Of a stretch of DNA of 64,000 nucleotides, positions 23,976 through 63,320 are shown one piece after another (the first letter of the stretch is position 1; each line of letters begins with the position of its first letter). Below the pieces are notes generated by a model, which was not told the origin of the DNA, did not search any database, and saw only the letters and a list, made by a program, of their open reading frames with translations. Position numbers and translations under genes: made by a program. This DNA is from Rubrivirga sp. SAORIC476. Its GTDB lineage: Bacteria > Bacteroidota > Rhodothermia > Rhodothermales > Rubricoccaceae. The stretch is taken from assembly GCF_002283555.1 (NCBI RefSeq), contig NZ_MVOI01000003.1, positions 1,042,798 through 1,106,797 on the forward strand, given 5' to 3'.

Positions 23976-25253
23976 CTACGAGTACACCGCGAACTCGTCG
24001 CGCCGGGCGTGCAGGTTGAGCGCGATGGCCAGCATGGCCGTGTTGGCCAGGATCGCCGAGCCGCCGTACGAGATGAACGGCAGCGGGATGCCGATCACCG
24101 GCATCAGCCCGATGGTCATGCCCACGTTGATCAAGATGTGGACCAGGAAGATGCCCGTCACCCCGGCGATGAACAGCCGCGGCAGCGCGAAGCCCGCCTG
24201 CACGCCGAGCCCCGCCAGCCTCAGAATGAGGAAGGCGAACAGCAGCAACACCGTCATTGTGCCGAGGAAGCCGAACTCCTCGCCGATGACGCAGAAGATG
24301 AAGTCGGTCGAGTTCTCGGGGATGTAGGCGCCCTGCGTCTGGGTGCCGTTCGTGAAGCCCTTCCCGAAGACGCCGCCCGAGCCGATGGCCGCCTTCGCCT
24401 GGATGACGTGAAAGCCCGCCCCGTAGCGGAACGCCTCCGGGTCGTCGAAGGCCACGAGGCGGTCCACCTGGTGCGGCTCCAGGACCTTGTTGAGCCCGAA
24501 CCACACCGTGACCCCGATCAGCCCCACACCGACGAACATCAGCACGCCCATCCAGCGCGTCCGCGTCCAGACCACCATGCCGACGGTCGCGCCGACGACG
24601 AAGATCGCCGCCCACCACGGGTTCACGATGGCGAGGTAGGACACCACCGCCGGGCCGCCGAACAGCAACGCCATCCACGGCAGCGGCACCAGGCCGCTCC
24701 AGAACAGCATCACCGGCACGAGGGCGGCAAACACGAGCCCGGTGCCCGTGTCGTTCTGCGCCACCACGAGCACCATCGGGATGGCCACGATGACGACGAA
24801 GACCAGCAGCGTCCGGAAGAAGGCCCAGTTCCAGCCGAACTGCGTCGCCCGCACCTCCTTGCGCGACAGGAAGGCCGTCGCCGCGAGCACCGTGCCCACC
24901 TTCGCGATCTCGGCCACCTGCAACCCGAACCCGCCGATGTAGAGCCAGCTCTTGGCGCCGTTGATCTCGCGCCCGAAGGCGAGCGCGGCCACGAGCAACC
25001 CGAGGCAGAACACGTACGCCAGCGGCGCCAGCTTGACGATGAACCGCGCCGGCAGCAGCAGGATGATCCCGAGCGCCACCGCCGAGATGCCGAACAGCAC
25101 GAGCTGCCGGTTGAAGTTCTGCTGCACCGACTCCAGCAAGAACTCCCGCGCCGGCCCGTGGGTCGCGCTGTAGATGGCCGTCAGCCCGATGCTGACGAGT
25201 GCCACCCACAGCAGCAGGCTCACCCAGTCGAGGTTCTTGTACCAGGGACGCAT
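23976..25253 (-). CDS. rodA: RodA, elongasome peptidoglycan glycosyltransferase
   Basis: SEDS-family polymerase that builds glycan strands for cell elongation with PBP2. The 425-residue product has about ten membrane spans. Family features include the N-terminal NLDWVSLLLWVALVSIGLTAIYS, the large loop segment AAIGSGGVFGKGF, TDFIFCVIGEEFGFLGT with the Glu used by SEDS proteins, and the end IPLPFISYGGSAILANTAMLAI. It lies 76 bp after mrdA, the usual pairing, and should be co-transcribed with it. Confidence 0.96.
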   Translation of the reverse strand: MRPWYKNLDWVSLLLWVALVSIGLTAIYSATHGPAREFLLESVQQNFNRQLVLFGISAVALGIILLLPARFIVKLAPLAYVFCLGLLVAALAFGREINGAKSWLYIGGFGLQVAEIAKVGTVLAATAFLSRKEVRATQFGWNWAFFRTLLVFVVIVAIPMVLVVAQNDTGTGLVFAALVPVMLFWSGLVPLPWMALLFGGPAVVSYLAIVNPWWAAIFVVGATVGMVVWTRTRWMGVLMFVGVGLIGVTVWFGLNKVLEPHQVDRLVAFDDPEAFRYGAGFHVIQAKAAIGSGGVFGKGFTNGTQTQGAYIPENSTDFIFCVIGEEFGFLGTMTVLLLFAFLILRLAGLGVQAGFALPRLFIAGVTGIFLVHILINVGMTIGLMPVIGIPLPFISYGGSAILANTAMLAIALNLHARRDEFAVYS

Positions 25254-25329: not shown

Positions 25330-27219
25330 TTAGATGCGGCCGACCGAGCGCTGGGCGCGGACGAACGGGATGAGGGCGTTGCGCTGCGGAGAGGCGATCT
25401 GGCCCCGGAAGTACTGTTCGATCATCAGGCTGGCGATGGGCGCCGCCGTCGTCGAGCCGAAGCCCGCGTTCTCGACGATCACGCCGACCGCCACCTGCGG
25501 GTCGTCCACAGGCGCGTAGGCGATGAACACCGCGTGGTCCTTGCCGCGCGGGTTCTCGGCCGTGCCCGTCTTGCCGGCCACCAGGATCTCGGCGAAGTCG
25601 CCGTAGGCCGGGATCTGCGCCCGCCTCGCGGTGCCTGCGGCCACCACCGCCTCCATGCCCTCGCGGACCACCTGGAAGTTGCGGGGCTCGATCGGGATCT
25701 GCTGCGGACGCCGCCGCGAGGGCGTGGTCGTGATGCCGGTCTCGGGGTCGGTCTGCGCCATCACGAGGTGCGGCGTCACCAGCGTCCCTCCGTTGCCGAT
25801 GGCCGCCGTGTAGCGCGCCAGCTGCAGCGGGCTCGTGCCCATGTTGCCCTGCCCGATGCCGAGGTTGACGGTGTAGCCCGGCCCCCAGCCCGCCGGGAAG
25901 ACGCGGTCGTAGTAGGACGAGTCCGGGATGAGGCCCGTGTTCTGGTTCGGGATGTCCAGCGGCGCCAGCTGGCCGAAGCCGAACCGGTGCGCCCAGTCGC
26001 CCCAGCGGTCGAGGTCCATCCGAATGCCGTTCGGGTGGAGTTCGTTGACGAACGTGTCGTTCATCAGCCGGAAGAAGAACGTGTTGCAGGACACCCGGAT
26101 GGCGTCGCGCAGCGCGATGTTGCCGTGCGAGCCGCCGTGGCAGCGGTAGAGCCGCCCGAGCACGTAGCCGCCTCCGCAGAACAGCGTCGTGTTCTCGTCG
26201 ATCATGCCCTCCTGGAGTGCGATGACGCCCATGAACGGCTTCCACGTCGACCCCGGCGGCAGCGCCGTCTGGGTGGCCCGGTTGAAGTCCGGCTGCTCCG
26301 GGTTGCGGTAGAGGAAGTCCACCTCGGCCTGCGTGAAGCCGTCGCGGTAGATCGACAGGTCGAAGTCGGGCGCCGACACCATCGAGATGATGCCGCCCGT
26401 CTTGGCGTCCATCATCACCGCCCCGCCGCGCTTATTGACGAACAGGCTCTCGGCGAGCGCCTGTACCGTCGCGTCGACGGCCAGCGTGAGCGCGAAGCCG
26501 GACTCCGGCGCCACGTCCTGCTCGCCGCCCTCGTAGCGCTCGACCTCCATGCCGTGGACGTTCCGCAACACGAACGCCCGCCCGACGCGCCCGCGCAGCA
26601 CGGGCTCGTACTCGGCCTCGATGCCCGACTTGCCGATCCGGTCGCCGAGCATGTAGCCCTGCTCGCGCATCTCGTCCAGCTCCTCCTCGCCGATCTCGTT
26701 GACGAAGCCGAGCGCATGCGTCAGTCGCGCGTCGCCGTGGTAGCGGCGCTGCTGGTCCTCCCGGAAGTTGACCCCCCGCAGCTGGTACTGGTTTTCCTGG
26801 AGACGGGCGAACGTCCAGAACGGCACGTTCTCGAGGAGCACGTCCTCCTGGTAAGCCGACCGCTCGACGATCTTGTCGTACCTGGCCTGCACCTCCTCCA
26901 GCGGCAGGCCCGCCAGCTCCGCGATCAGCGGCAGGTCCGCGGTGTCGAAGTAGCGCGGCGCGACCGTCACGCTCATCGTCGTCTCGTTGTCGACCAGCAA
27001 GAGGCCGTTGCGGTCGAAGATGTAGCCCCGCGCCGGGCGGACGATCTTGGTCTCGATGGCGTTGCCCGCCGCCTCGGTCTGGTACTGCTCCTTGTCGATG
27101 ATCTGCATCTGCACGAGCCGCCCCCCCAGGAACACGACGAGCCCGATGACGAGCCCGGTGAAGACGTGGAAGCGAGTGCGCGCGTCGTCGCGGGCGGTCT
27201 GGGAGAGGACGGAGGGCAT
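25330..27219 (-). CDS. mrdA: PBP2/MrdA, peptidoglycan transpeptidase
   Basis: Class B penicillin-binding protein of the elongasome, 629 residues. It has a single N-terminal membrane anchor (FHVFTGLVIGLVVFLGG), a pedestal domain with GRIGKSGIE-like features (DRIGKSGIEAEYE), and a transpeptidase domain with the active-site SxxK in PPGSTWKPF (Ser about 323), SxN in RVSCNTFFF (about 375), and KTGT in VAGKTGTAE (about 550). The ATG at 27219 (MPSVLSQTARDDART) puts the anchor at the usual place. The longer open frame upstream reaches 27639 into the divergent spacer and is not used. rodA follows. Confidence 0.96.
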   Translation of the reverse strand: MPSVLSQTARDDARTRFHVFTGLVIGLVVFLGGRLVQMQIIDKEQYQTEAAGNAIETKIVRPARGYIFDRNGLLLVDNETTMSVTVAPRYFDTADLPLIAELAGLPLEEVQARYDKIVERSAYQEDVLLENVPFWTFARLQENQYQLRGVNFREDQQRRYHGDARLTHALGFVNEIGEEELDEMREQGYMLGDRIGKSGIEAEYEPVLRGRVGRAFVLRNVHGMEVERYEGGEQDVAPESGFALTLAVDATVQALAESLFVNKRGGAVMMDAKTGGIISMVSAPDFDLSIYRDGFTQAEVDFLYRNPEQPDFNRATQTALPPGSTWKPFMGVIALQEGMIDENTTLFCGGGYVLGRLYRCHGGSHGNIALRDAIRVSCNTFFFRLMNDTFVNELHPNGIRMDLDRWGDWAHRFGFGQLAPLDIPNQNTGLIPDSSYYDRVFPAGWGPGYTVNLGIGQGNMGTSPLQLARYTAAIGNGGTLVTPHLVMAQTDPETGITTTPSRRRPQQIPIEPRNFQVVREGMEAVVAAGTARRAQIPAYGDFAEILVAGKTGTAENPRGKDHAVFIAYAPVDDPQVAVGVIVENAGFGSTTAAPIASLMIEQYFRGQIASPQRNALIPFVRAQRSVGRI

Positions 27220-27529: not shown

Positions 27530-30500
27530 ATGCGCACGCTCCTGTCACCCGCCGGCCGGTTCCTCCAAGCCCTCCTGGTGGCCGCCCTGCTCGCCGCCCT
27601 GACGCCCGCTGCCCAGGCCCAGTACTTCGGCCGCAACAAGGTCCGCTACGACGACTTCGACTTCCGGATCCTCGAGACCGAGCACTTCGACATTTACTAC
27701 TACGAGGGCATGGACCAGGCCTCGCGCGACGTGGCGCGGATGGCCGAGCGCTGGTACGACCGCCTCTCGACCATCCTGGAGCACGAGTTCGACGAGCGCA
27801 AGTCGATCATCCTCTACGCCGACGACGCGGACTTCCGGCAGACCAACATCGCCAACATCGGCGAGGGCACGCAGGGCGTCACGGAGGGCGCCCGCCAGCG
27901 CGTCGTGCTGCCGATGGCCGGGACCTACGCCGAGACCGACCACGTGCTCGGCCACGAGCTCGTCCACCAGTTCCAGTACGACCTCTCGCAGCGGGCCGGG
28001 CGCTTCGCGCAGTTCGTGCGCCTGCCGCTGTTCGTGATCGAGGGCATGGCCGAGTACTACTCCGTCGGCCGCGAGGACGCTCTCACGTCCATGTGGATGC
28101 GCGACGCCTGCCTCCGCGACGACTTCCCGACCATCGGCGAGTTGCAGCGGACCGGCTCCTACAACGAGTACCAGTACGGCCAGCCCTTCTGGGCTTTCGT
28201 CGCGGGCACCTACGGCGACCAGGCGGGCGTGCAGCTCTTCCGGTCGGCCCTGGAGATGCCGCTCGACTCGGCCATCGTGGCCGTGACCGGCCTGCCGCAG
28301 GAGGCCCTCTCGGAGCGCTGGGAGGCCGCCCTTCGGGAGCAGCTCCTCCCCCCGGCCGCCGGCCGCTCGGTGCCCGGCCCCGAGCGCTCGGCCGACGAGC
28401 TGGAGGCCATCGCCGAGCAGCGCCGCGACCGCGCCGAGCGCATCGCCGAGGGCGAGCGCCCGCGCCGCCCGCGCCTCCTCGCCTACCCCGACTCGCTCCC
28501 GGCCCTCACCGCGACTCGCCTGCTTGCCCGCGAGCGCGAGACGGGGACCATCAACATCGCCCCGCAGCTCTCTCCCAACGGTCGCTACGTGGCCTACCTG
28601 AGTGAGCTCGACCTGTTCGGCATCGACCTCTTCCTCGCCGACGCCGAGACGGGCGAGGTGGTCGCCAAGCTGGAGTCTGCCACGACGGACCCGCACCTGG
28701 ACGCGCTCCGCTTCATCGAGAGCGCCGGGACCTGGAGCCCCGACGGGCGCCAGTTCGCCTACGTCGTGTTCGCGGGCGGCGACAACGAGATCGCGATCCT
28801 CGACGTAGACCGCCGCGACGTGACCCGGCGCCTGACCGTCGAGGGCATCGGCGCCATCAAGGACCCGGCGTGGAGCCCGGACGGCACCCGAATCGCGTTC
28901 GCGGGCGTGCGGGGCGGCATCACCGACCTGTACGTGGTCACGCTCGCCACCGGCGAGGTGCAGCAGCTGACCAACGACCGCTTCGCGGACCTCCAGCCCG
29001 CCTGGAGCCCCGACGGCACGCAGATCGCCTTCTCGACCGACCGCGGACCGGGCACGGACTTCGTCCGCCTGACCTACTCGCCGATGCAGCTCGCCCTGTA
29101 CGACGTGGCGACGGGCGGCATCGAGACGCTGGCCGTGTTCGACGACGTCAAGCACATCAACCCGGCCTGGAGCCCGGACGGCACGAGCCTCTACTTCCTC
29201 TCCGACCGCGGCGGCTTCAACGACGTCTACCGCCTCGACGTGGCGACGGGCGACGCCTACCAGGTGACGAACCTCGCGACCGGCGTCGCCGGCATCGCGG
29301 ATCTCTCGCCGGCGCTCTCGGTGGCCCACGAGACGGGAAACCTCGCCTACTCGGTGTTCGAGGGCCAGCGCTACTCGGTCTACCGCACCGACGCGGCCGA
29401 CGCCGTCGGCACGCTGGTCACCGGCGAGGCCCTCGCCACGGCCGACGTGCTGCCCCCGGCGGACGCCTACAGCCGCTCCATCGTCCAGAACTACATCGCC
29501 GACGCCACCGGCGGCCTCCCCGAGGCGACCACCTTCCCGACACGCGGCTACAGCCCAAAGCTGTCGCTCGACTACGTCAGCCAGCCCCAGGTGGGGGTCG
29601 GCACGGACCCGTACTACAACTCGGGCTTCGGCATCTCGGGCGGCATCTCGTTCCTGTTCTCGGACCAGCTGAGCGACAACGTGCTCGGCGTGGCCGTCGC
29701 GGCGCAGGGCACGCTCAAGGACGTCGGCGGGCAGGCGCTCTACTACAACCGTGGGGGACGCCTGACGTATGGCGCGCTCGCAGGCCACATCCCGTACCTG
29801 CAGGTCTTCTACGACCGCCCGCCGCTGTCGAACCCCGATGAGGTGGACCTCTTCGGGATCACGCGCTACTACTACCGGACGTACGTGACGCAGGTCTCCG
29901 GCCTGTCCTCGTACCCGCTCAACCAGAGCCAGCGCTTCGAGGCGGAGCTCGGGTACCGCCGCCTCGGCTATGACCTGGAGTACGACGCCTTCGTTCAGAC
30001 GGAGAGTGGCAACCTGATCCAGGAGCGGCGCCCGGTGGAGGGCTTCTCGCCCGACCCGCTGCACCTCGGGCAGGGTGGCGTCGCCTACGTGGGCGACACG
30101 TCGCTGTTCGGCTTCACGTCGCCCATCCGCGGCTCGCGGTACCGCCTCGGGGCGGACCTCGTCTCGGGCTCACTGACGTTCGCTACCGTCACAGCCGACG
30201 CCCGGAAGTACGTCTTCGCGCGCCTGCCCGGCCTCCCGCGCCGCGTCCCAGTGACGTTCGCCGCCCGCGCGCTCCACTTCGGCCGCTACGGCGGCGACGC
30301 CTCGACGGGACGTCTGAACCCGCTGTTCATCGGCAACCCGCAGCTGGTCCGCGGCTACGGCTCGCGGTCGTTCGACATCCAGTCCACGGCTCAGTTCGAC
30401 GACTACCTGTCGTCGCTCTTCGGCACCAAGATCGGGGTTGCCTCGGTCGAAGCGCGGCTGCCGCTCCTGGGCGTGCCCCAGCTCGGCCTGATCACGTTCC

Positions 30501-30793
30501 CGTATCTGCCCACGGAGCTCGTCTTCTTCGCCGACGCGGGCTTCGCGTGGGGCGAGTCGCCGTACTTCGTCGGCTTCAACGAGCAGACGGGGCAGAGCAC
30601 CGTCTACACGTACGGGCGGTCGTTCGAGAATCAGGAGCCGGTGTTCTCGGCGGGCGTCTCGACGCGCATCAACCTGCTGGGCGCACTCATCATCGAGCCC
30701 TACTACGCGCTCCCGTTCTCGCGCTGGGGCGCCGACGGCGACCTCAACAAGGGCCGTGGCGTGTTCGGGTTCAACCTGTCGCCGGGCTGGTAG
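27530..30793 (+). CDS. Peptidase MA-like/TolB propeller/Omp85-like barrel fusion
   Basis: Large exported protein of 1087 residues with three visible regions. After a signal peptide (cleavage near AAQAQ, 30), residues 40-300 contain a gluzincin-type zinc site: HELVHQF (142-148) and VIEGMAEYY (169-177), whose Glu is the likely third ligand. Residues about 345-650 hold TolB/PD40 propeller repeats (ISPNG-type words TWSPDGRQFAY, AWSPDGTRIAF, AWSPDGTQIAF, AWSPDGTSLYF). From about 690 to the C-terminal Trp it is beta-barrel-like, with LVRGYGSRSF near 939, resembling the VRGF/Y motif of BamA/Omp85 proteins. It is probably an outer-membrane protein with periplasmic peptidase and propeller domains. The function is unknown. 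A strong hairpin follows. Confidence 0.85.
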   Translation: MRTLLSPAGRFLQALLVAALLAALTPAAQAQYFGRNKVRYDDFDFRILETEHFDIYYYEGMDQASRDVARMAERWYDRLSTILEHEFDERKSIILYADDADFRQTNIANIGEGTQGVTEGARQRVVLPMAGTYAETDHVLGHELVHQFQYDLSQRAGRFAQFVRLPLFVIEGMAEYYSVGREDALTSMWMRDACLRDDFPTIGELQRTGSYNEYQYGQPFWAFVAGTYGDQAGVQLFRSALEMPLDSAIVAVTGLPQEALSERWEAALREQLLPPAAGRSVPGPERSADELEAIAEQRRDRAERIAEGERPRRPRLLAYPDSLPALTATRLLARERETGTINIAPQLSPNGRYVAYLSELDLFGIDLFLADAETGEVVAKLESATTDPHLDALRFIESAGTWSPDGRQFAYVVFAGGDNEIAILDVDRRDVTRRLTVEGIGAIKDPAWSPDGTRIAFAGVRGGITDLYVVTLATGEVQQLTNDRFADLQPAWSPDGTQIAFSTDRGPGTDFVRLTYSPMQLALYDVATGGIETLAVFDDVKHINPAWSPDGTSLYFLSDRGGFNDVYRLDVATGDAYQVTNLATGVAGIADLSPALSVAHETGNLAYSVFEGQRYSVYRTDAADAVGTLVTGEALATADVLPPADAYSRSIVQNYIADATGGLPEATTFPTRGYSPKLSLDYVSQPQVGVGTDPYYNSGFGISGGISFLFSDQLSDNVLGVAVAAQGTLKDVGGQALYYNRGGRLTYGALAGHIPYLQVFYDRPPLSNPDEVDLFGITRYYYRTYVTQVSGLSSYPLNQSQRFEAELGYRRLGYDLEYDAFVQTESGNLIQERRPVEGFSPDPLHLGQGGVAYVGDTSLFGFTSPIRGSRYRLGADLVSGSLTFATVTADARKYVFARLPGLPRRVPVTFAARALHFGRYGGDASTGRLNPLFIGNPQLVRGYGSRSFDIQSTAQFDDYLSSLFGTKIGVASVEARLPLLGVPQLGLITFPYLPTELVFFADAGFAWGESPYFVGFNEQTGQSTVYTYGRSFENQEPVFSAGVSTRINLLGALIIEPYYALPFSRWGADGDLNKGRGVFGFNLSPGW

Positions 30794-30815: not shown

Positions 30816-30855
30816 GGAACGGGCAGAGGCTGTAGTCTGAGCCTCTGCCCGTTCC
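30816..30855 (+). terminator. Perfect 16 bp hairpin before pyrD
   Basis: Left arm GGAACGGGCAGAGGCT and right arm AGCCTCTGCCCGTTCC pair perfectly around an 8-base loop; the flanking sequence afterwards is CTCGTTCTCC. It lies 22 bp after the fusion-gene stop and ends 9 bp before the pyrD GTG, so it could be a terminator, an attenuator, or both. Confidence 0.6.
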
Positions 30856-30864
30856 TCGTTCTCC

Positions 30865-32001
30865 GTGCCTCGTCCCTCCCTGTATTCCCTCCTCCGCCCG
30901 CTCCTCTTCCGCCTCGATGCCGAGGCCGCGCACGGCGCGGGGATGCGGGCTGCCCAGCTGGGCCAGCGCGTGCCCGGCGTCGTCCGCACTCTCTTTCCCG
31001 CGGCCGATGCGCGGCTGGCGCAGTCGGCGTGGGGCCTGGCGTTCGCCTCGCCGGTGGGGCTGGCGGCCGGGTTCGACAAGAACGCGGCGCTGGTGCCTTT
31101 CTGGGCGAGCCTCGGGCTCGGCTTCGCCGAGGTGGGCTCGGTGACCGCCCGGCCGAGCGTGGGCAACCCGACGCCACGCGCCTTCCGCCTCCCCGCCGAC
31201 CGCGCGCTCGTCAACCGGATGGGCCTCAACAACGAGGGTGCGGCGGCCGTCGCCGCGCGGCTGGCGAGCACCCCGCGTCCGCCCGGCTTCGTGCTCGGCG
31301 TCAACGTGGCCAAGACGCACGACCCGACCCTCCTGGGCGATGCGGGCATTGAGGACTTCCGCCAGTCGGTCCGCGCGCTGGCGCCCCAGGCCGACTACCT
31401 CGCGCTCAACGTCTCGTGCCCCAACACGGCCGAGGGCAAGACGTTCGAGACCCCCGACGCGCTGGACGCGCTGCTGTCCGCCGTCGTGGAGGAACTGGAC
31501 AGAGAGCCGCGGGCCGGGGGCAGCGGGTCCGTGGGAACGCCTCCCCTGCTCGTCAAGCTCTCCCCTCCGGCGACCACCGACATCGACGCGGGGATGGTGA
31601 ACGAACTGGTCCAGATCTGCCTCGGGCACGGCGTGGACGGATTCATCGCGACCAACACGGCATCCGACCGGTCTGGACTCACCACCGAGGCGGGGCGGCT
31701 GGAGGCCATCGGGCGGGGCGGGCTGAGCGGACGCCCGCTCGCCGACCGCGCCCTCGCTCTCACGCGCCACCTCTACCGGACGACCGACGGCGCAGTGCCC
31801 ATCATCGGCGTCGGCGGCATCGACTCGGCCGAGGCGGCCTATGCGCGCGTCCGCGCCGGAGCGACGCTGCTGCAGGTCTACACCGGACTGGTCTACGAGG
31901 GGCCGGGGCTGGTCTCGCGCATCCACCGCGGCCTCGTGCGCCTCCTCGACCGCGACGGCCTCGGCACGCTCGCGGATGCGGTGGGAGCAGCGGCTCGCTG
32001 A
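30865..32001 (+). CDS. pyrD: PyrD, dihydroorotate dehydrogenase (class 2, quinone)
   Basis: FMN enzyme that oxidises dihydroorotate to orotate for pyrimidine synthesis. The N-terminal membrane-associating segment (SLYSLLRPLLFRLDAEAAHG) and 378-residue length mark class 2, which passes electrons to quinone, here menaquinone. Motifs are VGLAAGFDKNAALVPF, NRMGLNNEG, LGVNVAKT, LNVSCPNT with the catalytic Ser, LVKLSPP, TNT, GLSGRPL and IIGVGGI. The GTG at 30865 fits the expected N-terminus. Its 5' side is occupied by the preceding hairpin, leaving no room for a standard promoter between them. Confidence 0.96.
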   Translation: MPRPSLYSLLRPLLFRLDAEAAHGAGMRAAQLGQRVPGVVRTLFPAADARLAQSAWGLAFASPVGLAAGFDKNAALVPFWASLGLGFAEVGSVTARPSVGNPTPRAFRLPADRALVNRMGLNNEGAAAVAARLASTPRPPGFVLGVNVAKTHDPTLLGDAGIEDFRQSVRALAPQADYLALNVSCPNTAEGKTFETPDALDALLSAVVEELDREPRAGGSGSVGTPPLLVKLSPPATTDIDAGMVNELVQICLGHGVDGFIATNTASDRSGLTTEAGRLEAIGRGGLSGRPLADRALALTRHLYRTTDGAVPIIGVGGIDSAEAAYARVRAGATLLQVYTGLVYEGPGLVSRIHRGLVRLLDRDGLGTLADAVGAAAR

Positions 32002-35184: not shown

Positions 35185-36270
35185 CTACAGCCCGAGGCGG
35201 ACCGTCGCCATGTGCATCAGTGCCGAGCCGAACGGCTCCACGACGGCCGTGTAATCGACCCGCAGGTCGAGCTCGCCGACGCGTTGCTCGACGCCGAACC
35301 CGGCCGACGGCCGCAGTTCGCCGGCCTCGCCCGCGCCCACCCGGTCGATGCCGAGCCGAGCCGCGAACCCGTCGGTGATCCAGACTTCCGCCCCGGCCCG
35401 GCCGAGCACGTCGGCCAACGTCACGTCGAGCGTGGTGGAGGTCTCCGAGGCGGACGTGCCGATGACCTCGACACCGTCGGGGCGGCGCGTCTCCAGGGGC
35501 TGCACGACCAGTTCGGCCTCGGCGGCGACGGTGACGCGCGGACGCCCCTCGCCGCGGTCGCCGACCGTGTAGGCCGCGCCGCCGCGGATGCGCGTCGGGA
35601 AGTAGTCGGTCGCGGAGGCGGTCACGGAGCCGGTCGAGCTCCACTCGTAGCGCGCGAACAGGTCGTCCACGGACAGCCCGATGGCGAGGCGGTCGCTGGC
35701 CTGGACGGTCGTCCCGATCGCGATGCCGATGGCCGTCGGCGCCCGCGTGCCCTCGAACAGCTCGTTGCGGTAGAGCCGCAGGCCGACGCCCGCCGAGACG
35801 CGCTCGGAGAACTGGGTGCCGAAGGCGGCGAAGAAGGCGTACTCGTCGGCGCGCAACGTGCCGTCCTCGTTCTGTCCGTCGGTCGGGTAGCCGCTCGCGT
35901 CGCGCCCGTCGATGTTGTCGACGCCGCCATGCACGACGCCGCCCGCGAAGCCGGAGCGGGGCCGGAGCGGGGCCGACACCTGGACGGCGTTCCATGACCG
36001 GTCGTAGGCCAGCCGCCCCGCCGTCAGCTCGACCCCCTGCGCGGGGGCGAACGGCGCCAGGGCCGGGTTCAGGTAGGGGCTCGCGTAGCCCGAGCGGTCC
36101 GCCACCTGCGACGGCATCGCGAGCGACCGCGCGCCCATGCCCATCCGCGCGAACGCCCCAGCGCCCTGGGCCGAGACGGTCCCCGCCGCCGCGACGATCA
36201 GCGCAGCCAGCAGGGCGAGTCGGCCGCTCATGCCCCGCGCTCCGTATGTCCGTACCGTCGAGCCGCTCAT
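35185..36270 (-). CDS. PorV/PorQ-like outer-membrane protein
   Basis: Predicted outer-membrane barrel of about 361 residues related to the PorV/PorQ group used by type IX secretion. After the signal peptide (about 14-35), FARMGMGARSLAMPSQVA and YASPYLNPALAPF match the family N-terminus (GARALAM...NPA). Beta-strand-like repeats follow to the terminal VRLGL. The ATG at 36270 overlaps the upstream gene's stop by 4 bp (ATGA); an internal ATG at 36231 (MSGRLALLAALIV) would give a cleaner signal peptide and may be the real start. It is last in a three-gene operon with a propeller protein and a lipoprotein. Confidence 0.85.
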   Translation of the reverse strand: MSGSTVRTYGARGMSGRLALLAALIVAAAGTVSAQGAGAFARMGMGARSLAMPSQVADRSGYASPYLNPALAPFAPAQGVELTAGRLAYDRSWNAVQVSAPLRPRSGFAGGVVHGGVDNIDGRDASGYPTDGQNEDGTLRADEYAFFAAFGTQFSERVSAGVGLRLYRNELFEGTRAPTAIGIAIGTTVQASDRLAIGLSVDDLFARYEWSSTGSVTASATDYFPTRIRGGAAYTVGDRGEGRPRVTVAAEAELVVQPLETRRPDGVEVIGTSASETSTTLDVTLADVLGRAGAEVWITDGFAARLGIDRVGAGEAGELRPSAGFGVEQRVGELDLRVDYTAVVEPFGSALMHMATVRLGL

Positions 36271-37886
36271 TGGATCACCAGGATGCGTCCCGAGAACCGC
36301 TGGCCCCCGGCGTCGACGGTGTAGATGTAGGCCCCGTTGGCGAGGCGCAGGCCGTCGTCGGACTGGCCGTCCCAGGCGACCTCGTTGGGCCCGGCGGGCC
36401 GCCCCGGCGCCTCCAGCGTGCGGACGAGGTTCATGGCCACATCGAAGATGCGGATCGTCACGTCGGCCGCCGAAGCCAGGTCGAGGCGGACCCGCAGGTC
36501 GCCGTTGCGCGGGTTGAAGGGGTTCGGGTAGGCGTACACGTCGACCGCCCGGCCCTCCTCCGCGTCGGTCTGCGGGCGCACGTCGGCGCGGAACAGGCTC
36601 CACGTCTGGGCGCCGTCGGTGCTCTTCAACAGCCCGTCCGGCGTGCCCACCCAGACGGTGCCGGGCGTCGTGGCGACCGCGCGGGTCGTCGGGCCGGAGA
36701 GGGCCAGCGGGCGCCCGTCGGCCTGTCGGAACGTGCGGACGATGCGCCAGTTCGCGCCGTCGTCGTCGGAGATGTAGAGGCCGTCGCCGCTGGTGACGTA
36801 GATGCGCGTCTCGTCGAAAGCGATGTCCTCGGCGACGACCCCGAGGAGGACCGTTTCGAAGCGGGCGAAGCCGCCCTCGTCGTCTCCCCGCCACACGGCG
36901 ACGCCGTTCTCCTCCTCCTCGGTCGAGAAGGGGTTGCCGGAGTTGCGGCAGAGGGCCCAGACCTCGTCGCGGGCGTCCGCCAGGGGGCGCGTCTCCAGGG
37001 CGAACACCTGGTTTCCGGGCAGCGCGCCGCCGAGCAGCGCGTCGGTGTAGCGGATCCACGCGAGGTCGTCCGCCTCGGGCAGGCGGACCGACCGGTTGAG
37101 GCCGCCGTTGGTGCCCACCCACACCGTCCCGGCCTCGTCCACGACCACCGAGAACGCGATGTAGTTCTCGGAGAACTGGGCGAAGAAGGGCCGCTCGGGG
37201 TCGCCGTCGACGAAGCCGAGCGGCTGGCGGACGTCCGGGTTGTAGAGGAAGTCGTACGGCTCGCGGGGGTCGAGCACGAAGAGCGAGTCCGGCGGGAGGA
37301 CGACGCGCTGCCACGTGGCCCCGGCGTCGGTGCTGCGGCGCAGGCCCGCCAGCAGCGCCGCCGCGTAGATCGTGTCGGCGTCCGCCGTCAGCGCGAGGTC
37401 GAGGGGCGCCGAGCCCTGCGCGAGGACGGTCGGGATGGCGGGGAGCGTCGAGACGCCGTAGGTGACCGTCGTGTCGCGGCTCTGGTCGAGCGACGGGAAG
37501 CGGTACGTGTAGCTCTGCCCGCCGTCGGTCGAGACGGCGAAGCCCGCCGCGGTGACGGGCGGCTGGTCGGCGTCGGCCGTGACGTCGTTGTAGGCGAGCC
37601 CGACGGCCACCGTCCCGCCGCGGGCCTCGACGGCGAACACGCGGGCGTCGATGGCCGTGGCCGGGTCGAAGGCGGCGGCGGTGCCGGGAATCGAGACCGC
37701 GCCGTCCGGGCCGACCTGGACCAGGATGGGTCCGGCGCGGAGCGTGCCCGTCGCGTCGGCGTCCAGCACGGCGACGCCGTTGCGGGCGCCCTGTGGCAGG
37801 AGCGTCGCGACGCCCGCGCCGGTCTCGACGGTCTGGGCCTGGACGGCGACGCTCAGCGCGAGGCCGAGGAGGAGAAGGCGCCTCAT
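36267..37886 (-). CDS. Secreted propeller protein with C-terminal sorting/FlgD-like domain
   Basis: Exported 539-residue protein. A signal peptide (MRRLLLLGLALSVAVQAQ) is followed by repeats of the two-component-regulator/BNR propeller type (FAVSTDGGQSYTY, RRSTDAGATWQRV, VWVGTNGGLNRS, LYISDDDGANWRI, VWVGTPDGLLKSTDGAQTW). The last 85 or so residues are an Ig-like FlgD/type A sorting domain starting at VYAYPNPFNPRNG and ending FSGRILVIQ. This suggests export by a type IX-like system and surface attachment or release. It overlaps both neighbours by 4 bp, so the three products are probably made in fixed proportion and may act together. Confidence 0.88.
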   Translation of the reverse strand: MRRLLLLGLALSVAVQAQTVETGAGVATLLPQGARNGVAVLDADATGTLRAGPILVQVGPDGAVSIPGTAAAFDPATAIDARVFAVEARGGTVAVGLAYNDVTADADQPPVTAAGFAVSTDGGQSYTYRFPSLDQSRDTTVTYGVSTLPAIPTVLAQGSAPLDLALTADADTIYAAALLAGLRRSTDAGATWQRVVLPPDSLFVLDPREPYDFLYNPDVRQPLGFVDGDPERPFFAQFSENYIAFSVVVDEAGTVWVGTNGGLNRSVRLPEADDLAWIRYTDALLGGALPGNQVFALETRPLADARDEVWALCRNSGNPFSTEEEENGVAVWRGDDEGGFARFETVLLGVVAEDIAFDETRIYVTSGDGLYISDDDGANWRIVRTFRQADGRPLALSGPTTRAVATTPGTVWVGTPDGLLKSTDGAQTWSLFRADVRPQTDAEEGRAVDVYAYPNPFNPRNGDLRVRLDLASAADVTIRIFDVAMNLVRTLEAPGRPAGPNEVAWDGQSDDGLRLANGAYIYTVDAGGQRFSGRILVIQ

Positions 37887-38638
37887 TGGACCGTGAAGGT
37901 GTAGGGCGCCGGGGCGCTCTCGGCGCCCGCGCGGTCGATGGCGACGATCTCCAGCGCGTACGTGCCCGGCTCGAACGACGCGTCCACGACGATGCCCGCC
38001 GAGTAGCGACCGTCGTCGGCCGCCTGGTCCTGGTTCTCGCCGTCGTCGAAGAGGCGGCCGATGACGCCGCCGCCGTCGGGCACCTGGGCGACGACGACGA
38101 GCACGTTGGCCCGTCCGTCGGGGTCGGTGACCGTGGCGACGAGCGGGACGGTGACCGTGCGCGTCCCGGTCGGACGCGTCACGGCGGACGGCGTGTTGGC
38201 CGTCACCACGGGCGGCCCGAGGTTGGCGGCGTCGAAGCGGAAGACGGCCGCGGCCTGGTCGCCCGCGCGGCCGTCGGCCCCCTCGGTGGTCACGCGGACG
38301 CTGTACTCGCCGGTCGCGCCTCGCGGGATCGTGACCGGGGCCTCGACGCGGAACGCGCCCCCGGCCACCTCGGCGCTCGCCTCGGTGACCAGCGAGTCGG
38401 TCTCGGCGTAGCGGACCAGCACGCGGACTTCCACGGCGCCCTCGGCGTCCAGCGTGCCGCTGACGGCCAGCGGGACCGTCGCCGTGGGCGCGTCCCCGTC
38501 GAGCGAGAACGCGGCGGGCGTGATGGCGACCTCCGCGAGAATCGGGCGGGAGACCTCGTCGGCGAACCCGGGCGCGGCGTCACACCCGGCGAGGGTGAGC
38601 GCGACCAGGGCCACGACGGACCGAAGGGCTACGGGCAT
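37883..38638 (-). CDS. Lipoprotein with Ig/cadherin-like domains
   Basis: Predicted lipoprotein of 251 residues. The signal peptide ends in VALTLAGC with Cys about 18, followed by Asp. The mature part resembles two tandem Ig-like sandwiches: residues about 35-125 and 130-251. The second contains LVATVTDPDGRANVLVVVAQ and DDGRYSAGIVVDASFEPGTYALEIVAIDRAGAES, split near residue 220, typical of extracellular Ig-like repeats. It is first in the three-gene unit and overlaps the propeller gene by 4 bp (ATGA). A TAGCTTTG promoter element lies 66 bp upstream. Confidence 0.82.
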   Translation of the reverse strand: MPVALRSVVALVALTLAGCDAAPGFADEVSRPILAEVAITPAAFSLDGDAPTATVPLAVSGTLDAEGAVEVRVLVRYAETDSLVTEASAEVAGGAFRVEAPVTIPRGATGEYSVRVTTEGADGRAGDQAAAVFRFDAANLGPPVVTANTPSAVTRPTGTRTVTVPLVATVTDPDGRANVLVVVAQVPDGGGVIGRLFDDGENQDQAADDGRYSAGIVVDASFEPGTYALEIVAIDRAGAESAPAPYTFTVQ

Positions 38639-60437: not shown

Positions 60438-62534
60438 TCAGCGGCTGAACTCGAAGCGCGCGGCGCGCTTGACGGTGCGGCGGAGCCACGAGCGCCGCCG
60501 CGGCACCTCGCCGACCAGCCCTTCCAGGCGGACCGGCTGGGCGCCCGTCAGCACGAGGTGCGGGGCGTGGCCGCTGGCCCGCTCCAGCGCCGACGCCGTG
60601 TGGGCGTCGGCGGTCGCCCAGGAGCGGCTGGCGCGGGCGGCGAGCAGGACCACGTCGGCGTGGGCCAGCAGACCGACCGGCAGCGGCGCGTCCAGGACGG
60701 GCGGCAGTTCCAGGATGGTGAGGTCAGCGTCGGATGGCCCGGCGATGGCGTCGAGGGTCTCGGCCTCGGGGAAGGCGTCGGTCACGGCGTAGGGCGTCGC
60801 GCCGCCGTCGGCGTGGGGGGCGAGGTAGTTGACCGTCCGCCCGCGCGCGGCGAAGCGCTCGGCCAGCCGGGCGGCGACGAAGCCCGCGCCCTCGCCCGCC
60901 TGGCCGCTGGCGACCGCGACGAACTGGGGCTCCCGGGCGTCGCGTTCACGCAGAACGAGCGACACGTTGCGCAGGAACTGGGCGTCGAGCGGCTTCAGGA
61001 GTGCCGGGTCGGCGGGGGCCGTCGGGTAGGCGCCGGCGAGGGGCAGGCCCGAGACCTCGGCGGCGCGCTCGGGCGTCCGCATCGACTGGTCGAACACCTC
61101 GACCGCCAGTAGGCCGCCGACGCACAGCGCCAGCCCGGCCAGGAAGGCGACGACCACGAGCAGCGGCCGCTTCGACGAGTTGGGCCGCGCCGGGCGCTGC
61201 GGCGGCGCGACCACGTCCAGGTTGGCCGCCCGCGCGATGCTCTGCTGCCGCATCCGCGCCAGATTGAGGCTGTGGAGCATCTCCATGTAGGTCCCCTCCG
61301 CGATGTCGACCTCGCGCTCCAGGCTGGAGAGCGTCGAGCCGAGCGGCGCGAACACGTCGTAGACGCGCTGGTACTCGTCGCGCCGCTGGCGCAGGACGGC
61401 CAGGCGGGCGCGGCCCTCGGTGACGCTCGTGGCGTGGTTGAGCCAGGCGCCGGTGAGGGCGCTCCGGGCGACGCCCTGCTCGGAGTTGCTGAGCCGGTGC
61501 AGGCCGCGGACGCTCCCGTTGAGCGCCGCGCGCATCGAGTCAGCCTGGGCGCGGGCGGCGGGGTCGGCCGTGCCGAGCGCCTCGGCGCGGGCCGCGCGGG
61601 CGGTCGCCGCCGAGAGCGACTGGCGCTGCTGCGCCACGGCGTCGCTCTGGATCAGGACCGCCTCGCGCTCGCTCAGGCGTCGCTCGGTGTCGCGCAGCGC
61701 GTTCTCGGCCGCGGCCAGCGCCATCTCCTCCTGCTGCACCTCGTGGTCCAGGCTCTCCTTCTGCGAGGCGACGTACTTCGTCTGCTCGTAGTAGTTGATG
61801 ATCCGGTTGTCGACGCCGAACGCGCGCGTCCCGCCGACGGCGCTCCGCAGGGCGCTGTCGGCCAGGGCGGTCTGCTCTTCGAAGAACTCCACGACGCCGC
61901 CCGTCTGGCGCGTCTTCATGTCGCGGAACTCGTCGATCACGTCGTCCAGAATCAGCTCCAGCACGAGCTGCGCCAGCACCGGGTCGGGCGACGTGTAGCG
62001 GATCTCGACCATGTCGGACCCGCCGACGCGGTTCGCCTGGATGGCGCCCTGGAGCGTGCTCACGTTCACCGGCGACTCGTCGATGTAGAGCGCCGCGTAG
62101 ATCGGGCTCCCGACATCGTCGGCCTCGGCGCTGAGGCGGGCGAGGCGGGCGGCGCTGGCCCCCTCGGTCGCGGACACGGCCCGGACGACGGCGCCAGGCA
62201 CCGTCGGGATCTCGACCTCCTCGGCCAGCCGCAGTCGGCCGTCGGCGCGGCGGGCGATCAGTTGGAGGGCGACGCGCTCGACCGTCTCGCGGCTCTTGAT
62301 GAGCTGGATCAGGTTGTCGAACGCCGTCTGCGTGGTCAGGTAGTCGACCCGGCTGCCGCTCTCGGAGTCGATGGAGTAGCCGGACACGAAGCCCGTGTAG
62401 AGGGTTGTCGAGGCGGCGTACTCGCGGGGCAGGTCGCGCGTGGCGAGGAAGACGACGGCGGCCATGCCGAGGGGCACGGCGGTCAGCAGCAGCCAGTGGC
62501 GGCCGAGCAGCCGCAGGACGTGGAGCAGGCTCAT
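60438..62534 (-). CDS. Wzc-like chain-length protein with degenerate kinase domain
   Basis: Polysaccharide co-polymerase of 698 residues. The N-terminal helix (about 13-32), Wzz-type periplasmic domain, long coiled-coil (about 250-430), and second helix (about 457-480, preceded by a Pro-rich stretch) are as in Wzc. The cytoplasmic part from about 495 corresponds to the BY-kinase, but the Walker A reads SGQAGEGAGFVA (about 543-554), where the family has GEGKT, so the nucleotide-binding Lys and Thr are missing. The Walker B-like segment is LTILELPPVLD, and there is no Tyr-rich tail. It probably controls chain length or export without kinase activity. It overlaps the TolC-like gene by 4 bp. Confidence 0.88.
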   Translation of the reverse strand: MSLLHVLRLLGRHWLLLTAVPLGMAAVVFLATRDLPREYAASTTLYTGFVSGYSIDSESGSRVDYLTTQTAFDNLIQLIKSRETVERVALQLIARRADGRLRLAEEVEIPTVPGAVVRAVSATEGASAARLARLSAEADDVGSPIYAALYIDESPVNVSTLQGAIQANRVGGSDMVEIRYTSPDPVLAQLVLELILDDVIDEFRDMKTRQTGGVVEFFEEQTALADSALRSAVGGTRAFGVDNRIINYYEQTKYVASQKESLDHEVQQEEMALAAAENALRDTERRLSEREAVLIQSDAVAQQRQSLSAATARAARAEALGTADPAARAQADSMRAALNGSVRGLHRLSNSEQGVARSALTGAWLNHATSVTEGRARLAVLRQRRDEYQRVYDVFAPLGSTLSSLEREVDIAEGTYMEMLHSLNLARMRQQSIARAANLDVVAPPQRPARPNSSKRPLLVVVAFLAGLALCVGGLLAVEVFDQSMRTPERAAEVSGLPLAGAYPTAPADPALLKPLDAQFLRNVSLVLRERDAREPQFVAVASGQAGEGAGFVAARLAERFAARGRTVNYLAPHADGGATPYAVTDAFPEAETLDAIAGPSDADLTILELPPVLDAPLPVGLLAHADVVLLAARASRSWATADAHTASALERASGHAPHLVLTGAQPVRLEGLVGEVPRRRSWLRRTVKRAARFEFSR

Positions 62535-63259
62535 CGACCCGGGGCGCTGGCGACGGCCGCCGGGGCGGCGGTCGGGGCGGCGGCCTGCGCGGTCAGCGCC
62601 GACAGCGTGCCGCCGCACAGGCGGTCGAGTTGTCCGTAGGCCGTCAGGTAGTCGGTGCGCGCCGTCTCGAAGGCGGCCTGCGCCTCGGCGGCGATCTGGT
62701 CGACGCGCGCCAGCTCGCCCACGGCGACGTCGCCCTGCACGAACTCGGCCTCGGCCATCGCCCGGTGCGTCCGCGCGGACTCCATGCCGCCGGAGCGGAC
62801 GCCCACGAGGCGGTACGCGAGTTCGGTCCGCCGGTAGAGCGCGATCACGACCAGGTCCAGCTCTTCGTCGGCCTCGGCCTGGCGAGCGCGCGACTGCGCC
62901 AGCTCGGCCTCGGCCTGCCGCGCCTCGTGGCGCCGCCCGAGCACGTCGTACAGCGACAGCCGCACGCTCACGCCCACGGTCGCGCCGACCGACAGCTGGT
63001 CCACCAGGTCGTTGCCATACGTCCCGGCCGTCGCCCCGACGTTGACGCCCAGGTTGTCGGTCCAGGCGCTGCGCGTCCGGTCCAGCTGGGCCTCGTTCTT
63101 GGCGACTGTCGCCGCCGCGTAGCGGACGGACGGGGACTGACGGTGGACCGCAGCGAGGACGGTGTCCAGCGTGGGGAGGGCCGGCAGGCCGTCGTCGGCC
63201 TGGGCGTGAGGGGCGGCCGCAGGGAGCGCGAGCGCGAGCAGGAGAAGGAAGCGATGCAT
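62531..63259 (-). CDS. Half-length TolC-like outer-membrane efflux protein
   Basis: Exported protein of 242 residues with signal peptide (MHRFLLLLALALPAAAPHAQ). It resembles one TolC/OEP repeat: LDTVLAAVHRQSPSVRYAAATV, a barrel-like stretch VGATVGVSVRLSLYDVLGRR, then long helices with EARQAEAELAQSRARQAEA and VDQIAAEAQAAFETARTDYLTAYGQLDRL (split at 200). Complete TolC proteins have two such repeats and over 400 residues, so this is about half length. It is first of the operon and 4 bp overlapped with the Wzc-like gene. It may replace Wza as the outer-membrane part, as an oligomer of half subunits (inference). Confidence 0.8.
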   Translation of the reverse strand: MHRFLLLLALALPAAAPHAQADDGLPALPTLDTVLAAVHRQSPSVRYAAATVAKNEAQLDRTRSAWTDNLGVNVGATAGTYGNDLVDQLSVGATVGVSVRLSLYDVLGRRHEARQAEAELAQSRARQAEADEELDLVVIALYRRTELAYRLVGVRSGGMESARTHRAMAEAEFVQGDVAVGELARVDQIAAEAQAAFETARTDYLTAYGQLDRLCGGTLSALTAQAAAPTAAPAAVASAPGR

Positions 63260-63320
63260 CAGGGTGTGGTTGGCTGACCGATCGCAACGTCCCCCGTCCT
63301 CTCTCTTTCTCCGGCCGCGT

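Follow-up and report, generated by a model that had tools for sequence, protein, structure and literature searches.

Omp85 proteins fall into ten subfamilies in the survey of Heinz and Lithgow from 2014, and one of these is WD40-Omp85 (PMC4104836). The main text of that survey likens WD40-Omp85 to a fusion of BamA with BamB and proposes an assembly-type role for it, and it describes the minor Omp85 subfamilies as conserved at the genus level only. It also lists a "Metallo" class, which carries PF00149. Two better characterized systems bear on the protein described here. PlpD has a periplasmic enzyme domain on an Omp85 barrel, and it influences phospholipid levels (PMC11116518). In E. coli, BepA is a separate M48 zinc peptidase that works at BamA and the BAM complex (PMC8423444).

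We analyzed a window of 64,000 nucleotides, the whole stretch of DNA considered here, and focused on one gene within it. The gene opens with an ATG at 27530, its stop codon ends at 30793, and translation gives a product of 1087 residues: a putative signal peptide followed by a zinc-peptidase domain, a TolB-like propeller and an Omp85-type barrel (Table 1). The reading frame could extend upstream to 27416, which lies ahead of the signal peptide; strong homology to orthologues runs from Q31 onward. The closest named relative comes from a Rubrivirga MAG (81% identity), which makes a member of the Rubricoccaceae, in the Rhodothermales, the probable source of the window. AlphaFold2 modeled residues 31-1087 with a mean pLDDT of 86.6 and a pTM of 0.83. 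The initial annotation had proposed the same three domains from their motifs, and structure prediction and fold comparison bear out all three; the open reading frame and the HELVH, EGMAEY, WSPDG and VRGY motifs lie where it had placed them. Because the identical architecture recurs across several phyla, we ruled out an ORF artefact or a recent one-off fusion. PADLOC returned no match, which ruled out a defence system, and the Salinibacter porin of the literature is a different protein.

Table 1 Features of the target gene, its product and its neighbours, in positions of the window.
Feature	Positions	Strand	Basis
Complete gene; 1087-aa product with signal peptide, zinc peptidase, TolB-like propeller and Omp85 barrel	27530..30793	+	ORF, translation; full-length orthologues in relatives
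Putative signal peptide, residues 1-30 (MRTLL...AAQA), cleavage expected before Q31	27530..27619	+	sequence; homology onset at QYFGRNKV
Gluzincin-type zinc-peptidase domain, residues 31-291; predicted ligands H142, H146 and E171, predicted catalytic base E143	27620..28403	+	invariant ligands, domain model, fold matches, Pfam over alignment
HELVH, residues 142-146	27953..27967	+	sequence; H-E-x-x-H invariant
EGMAEY, residues 171-176, with E171 as predicted third zinc ligand and E175 invariant	28040..28057	+	sequence, conservation
TolB-like propeller, about residues 330-620, with PD40 repeats and four WSPDG	28517..29389	+	PD40, TolB sequence match, TolB fold match
C-terminal Omp85/BamA-type barrel, about residues 679-1087	29564..30790	+	PF01103, BamA fold match, predicted strands
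VRGY (residues 940-943) in loop L6, flanked by the strands that match BamA beta 11 and beta 12	30347..30358	+	sequence, structure, conservation
mrdA/PBP2 homologue, divergent neighbour	25333..27219	-	Pfam; adjacency in 20 loci
rodA, beside mrdA	23979-25253	-	adjacency in 18 loci
pyrD homologue, directly downstream	30865..31998	+	Pfam; adjacency in 19 loci

The barrel region matched a single Pfam family, PF01103 (Omp85), at 5.5e-7 and above the cut-off; the same family was matched in 9 of 24 orthologues. Foldseek aligned the model with BamA (5.7e-9), and VIA-align superposed about 310 residues of it (about 650-1057 of the model) on BamA barrels, with Z of about 21-22. Parsing the DSSP strands by hand gave 16 barrel strands, provided that 980-986 and 993-998 form a hairpin of an outer loop. 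Under this parse the VRGY loop falls between strands 11 and 12, as it does in BamA, and the length and start of the region also agree. R941, G942 and Y943 in loop L6 were identical in all 76 relatives aligned, and the chain has an aromatic C-terminus (...VFGFNLSPGW). The likeness to BamA thus takes in the barrel fold along its full length, the RGY/F motif in L6 and the aromatic end, which bears out the earlier description of the barrel as Omp85-like. The Pfam match, the BamA fold and the RG[YF] motif in L6 place the protein in the Omp85/TpsB superfamily. BamA, though, has POTRA domains, and no Pfam POTRA family matched the target protein at E up to 1; with POTRA absent, we ruled out that the protein is BamA itself. 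Other genes of the genome encode POTRA-Omp85 proteins, among them a BamA candidate, so the target protein is additional to BamA. A further protein of 1270 residues, on contig C6 near 679 kb (L161:2613-6422, - strand), has an Omp85 barrel match and a VRGY motif; we found no peptidase or PD40 match in it, and its N-terminal part matched no Pfam family.

Ahead of the barrel, the propeller contains exactly four WSPDG motifs, at residues 402, 448, 492 and 547, with an SPNG at 348. It matched Pfam PD40 at 3.5e-32, solved TolB chains matched it by sequence (up to 1.7e-24, residues about 401-508), and a TolB match was also found by Foldseek (1.8e-11) and by VIA-align, which aligned 244 residues with a Z of up to 26.9. 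TolB and the target share this propeller fold (Z about 26), which sequence comparison also detects, but TolB has a TolB_N domain and no barrel, whereas the target has a barrel and no TolB_N. An orthologue of TolB was ruled out on two grounds: the NCBIfam TolB equivalog TIGR02800 has a cut-off of 343 bits and the target, at 125, fell far short of it, and Pfam gave no TolB_N match in the target protein. TolB_N was not found anywhere in the window's genome either, yet it was matched in three control genomes; the canonical TolB may have been lost from this genome or may have diverged.

The N-terminal domain was harder to place by sequence. Of the families that the initial annotation had named for searching, PD40 and PF01103 were matched directly, as described above. 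PF13485 (Peptidase_MA_2) stayed below threshold on the target's own peptidase region, and several paralogues of the genome and homologues passed its cut-off of 32.4 bits with scores of 34.1-52.7. Pfam searches over the peptidase region of 24 orthologues returned BSP in all 24, M9 in 11, Peptidase_MA_2 in 9 (E up to 0.01) and M1 in one. We place all four families in the Peptidase_MA clan. PF00149, by contrast, we take to be a metallophosphoesterase family, and the "Metallo" Omp85 class therefore differs from the target. Membership of the BepA family (M48) was ruled out by the absence of any Pfam M48 match in the target protein at E up to 1.

Sequence-profile searches of solved structures found nothing for the peptidase or the barrel taken alone, which made fold comparison necessary. 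Folded by itself, the peptidase domain reached a pLDDT of 82.6 and a pTM of 0.82. Its highest-ranked fold matches were zinc peptidases of the gluzincin kind throughout: the M30 enzyme lugdulysin (Z 16.0, rmsd 4.5 over 238), M9 collagenases (Z 13-15) and M1 aminopeptidases (Z 12-13); the domain is helical, and according to the tool a Z under 13 can arise by chance for helical bundles, but the top matches score higher and the ligand motif is concordant. In the predicted model, the peptidase region has a gluzincin fold.

The zinc site itself was invariant. H142, E143, H146, E171 and E175 were identical in all 76 relatives, drawn from several phyla, so the HExxH and Glu ligands that had been read from a single sequence are indeed conserved. 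Given the composition of the protein, the expected number of chance HExxH motifs is 0.006, and invariance across the 76 sequences rules out a chance origin of the motifs. The peptidase is also the best conserved of the large domains in this alignment, with a mean entropy of 1.24 bits compared to 1.50 for the propeller and 1.70 for the barrel. Two scan patterns, covering residues near 33-40 and 95-102, were used to collect loci; conservation of these two stretches is biased for that reason, and the zinc site lies in neither. Intact ligands and base E143 in 76/76 relatives and in all four paralogues of the window's genome point to selection on catalysis rather than decay. Judged from its sequence, the zinc-site motif is intact and under selection, and the peptidase is apparently active.

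One other stretch stood out for its conservation. The mature N-terminus, QYFGRNKVQY (27620-27649, + strand), ranks with the best conserved parts of the whole family, and model confidence is low there. Its conservation in alignment A2 is biased, since the scan pattern partly selected for this stretch, and it is invariant or nearly so in the pattern-free alignment A1. By analogy with the N-terminus of TolB, it is perhaps a docking or control peptide.

These features allowed us to compare the protein with the described subfamily. Like the target, WD40-Omp85 proteins have a TolB-like beta-propeller ahead of an Omp85 barrel and no POTRA domain (PMC4104836), and the target's family is very probably this subfamily as far as its published main text describes it. 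That text describes the propeller alone; the zinc peptidase is a feature of the target that goes unmentioned there. In the open literature that we searched, propeller-Omp85 proteins were nowhere described as having a zinc peptidase. The subfamily was thus already known as a combination of propeller and barrel, and what our analysis would add is a conserved zinc-peptidase domain and a wide spread. The sequences suggest that a subfamily known merely for its propeller and barrel is also a protease.

The spread is wider than the genus-level conservation stated for minor subfamilies (PMC4104836). Orthologues are present in Bacteroidota, Gemmatimonadota, Zixibacteria, KSB1 and Calditrichota, and 60 of 60 relatives of the window's genome gave matches; one family of the order (f4) yielded distant homologues only. 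Within the window's phylum, 134 of 198 genomes sampled matched a profile of the peptidase domain, as did 100 of 101 genomes sampled from Gemmatimonadota (the phylum of locus L048, recorded as Gemmatimonadetes); these are counts of the peptidase domain, the full architecture having been checked on a subset of sequences, and most frames were about 950-1200 residues long. Some families within the window's phylum lack the domain, so the protein is not indispensable everywhere. PF13485 matched none of 14 control genomes, which is our sole gauge for absence from Proteobacteria.

Three more proteins encoded in the window's genome combine a peptidase, a propeller and an Omp85 barrel. In a tree of 30 proteins, the target clade (100/100) was separate from two paralogue clades (C3 524-529 kb, 100/99; C11, 100/100) and each was common to other genomes, so the duplications would be older than the genus, probably by far. 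The fourth gene copy of the genome sits on a long branch whose position is unsure. All paralogue types keep HExxH, E171 and the RG of loop L6; in the long-branch paralogue, E175 is replaced by Q. The target is a member of a widespread, paralogous, uncharacterised family and not a one-off fusion. In five Gemmatimonadota loci (L074, L092, L095, L104 and L105), the orthologue has next to it another gene, or gene fragment, from its own sequence cluster, which suggests local duplication.

Where would such a protein act? N-terminal domains of Omp85 proteins are periplasmic where they have been studied. Because characterised Omp85 proteins, PlpD included, keep such domains there, the peptidase and propeller are likely to lie in the periplasm as well. 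A surface location has also to be considered, in which peptidase and propeller would be exported through or with the barrel and work outside the cell as a protease that serves nutrition or processing, as in the former type Vd view of PlpD. The peptidase fold is nearest to the secreted M30 and M9 enzymes, and the paralogues could be distinct surface proteases. We nonetheless think this distinctly improbable, given the periplasmic placement of other Omp85 N-terminal domains, the implausible export of a folded propeller through a barrel of BamA size, and the finding that the enzyme domain of PlpD stays inside (PMC11116518).

We propose instead that the Omp85 barrel anchors the zinc peptidase and propeller to the outer membrane on its periplasmic side, where they would have a role in quality control or processing; we hold this reading with about as much confidence as doubt. 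The protein would be exported by Sec and its barrel inserted by BamA, leaving the peptidase and propeller in the periplasm, where BamA has its POTRA domains. The propeller could then dock partners or substrates, and the peptidase could cut exported polypeptides at the membrane. Its targets may be outer-membrane proteins or lipoproteins that are misassembled or immature, or the cut may be a maturation step. Such a protein would have the layout of PlpD, in which an Omp85 barrel carries an enzyme, and do the job of BepA, a separate peptidase at BamA. Both parallels have limits. PlpD, like the target, joins an N-terminal hydrolase and an Omp85 barrel in one chain (PMC11116518), but it pairs a patatin lipase with a POTRA domain where the target has a zinc peptidase and a propeller. 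The likeness to BepA is that of a zinc peptidase at a BamA-type barrel, a function that for the target we infer; BepA is a separate M48 protein, and the target peptidase is nearest to M30, M9 and M1 folds. The initial annotation had gone further and pictured a self-contained envelope machine tethered to a pore. The domain composition on which that picture rested is supported by fold and conservation; the pore and the machine are not, and the barrel may serve only as an anchor or assembly site.

The main rival to this peptidase role remains a factor for the assembly or insertion of outer-membrane proteins, with a BamA-like foldase, the propeller acting as BamB and the peptidase minor or regulatory. 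It would fit the BamA-like barrel fold, the invariant RGY in L6 and the published comparison of WD40-Omp85 with a BamA and BamB fusion (PMC4104836, main text). We consider it unlikely: POTRA domains are absent, a BamA candidate is separately present, and the zinc site, which a pure foldase would not need, is the most conserved part of the protein apart from the N-terminal motif.

Outside Proteobacteria, a widespread Omp85 protein with a conserved, apparently active zinc peptidase would be a major contributor, as yet uncharacterised, to the maintenance of the outer membrane. It also adds to PlpD a second case of an enzyme-carrying Omp85 barrel. Its function could be tested directly through a single active-site mutation. 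More tentatively, and with somewhat more doubt than belief, we suggest an FCB-wide class of self-contained outer-membrane proteolytic machines, each an Omp85 barrel with its own zinc peptidase and docking propeller. This class would comprise several ancient paralogues, be near-universal in Gemmatimonadota and do the jobs of the separate BamB and BepA of Proteobacteria.

Gene neighbourhoods fell into two arrangements. In Rhodothermales, mrdA and rodA (20 and 18 loci) lie on one side of the target gene in divergent orientation, and pyrD (19 loci) comes after it. In Gemmatimonadota, a convergent mlaD lies within one or two downstream genes, mostly followed by mlaF and mlaE; this was seen in 19 loci (among L049-L112), nearly all of them named Gemmatimonadota, with gaps of 3-263 bases in all but one. 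Neither arrangement places the target in an operon, the same-strand pyrD excepted. The neighbourhoods show that the gene is inherited vertically and in synteny, in an envelope setting, but they do not single out a function. The mrdA-rodA, pyrD and Mla neighbours are envelope-related in part and give no pointer to protein quality control, which counts against the role that we favour.

Each arrangement invites an explanation of its own. The MlaD, MlaF and MlaE genes, together with the effect of PlpD on phospholipid levels (PMC11116518), would suit a role in outer-membrane lipid balance, in which the barrel disturbs or senses the bilayer and the peptidase acts on a lipid-transport partner. The target and mlaD converge, however, and so share no operon, and the Rhodothermales neighbours are mrdA-rodA and pyrD instead, which makes the Mla link lineage-specific; we judge this role to have little chance of being right. 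The adjacency of mrdA and rodA could likewise point to joint work with them on components of the cell wall or of elongation, which the peptidase would mature or trim. That seems very improbable to us, since the orientation is divergent, the adjacency is largely confined to Rhodothermales and orthologues elsewhere have other neighbours.

Three further features of the window were recorded. Between the target gene and pyrD lies a stem-loop of 16 pairs (30816-30855), which is terminator-like on the - strand, where it has a T-rich tail. Two long open reading frames, of 636 codons (35994-37904, + strand) and 949 codons (60438-63287, - strand), had zero Pfam matches at 1e-5.
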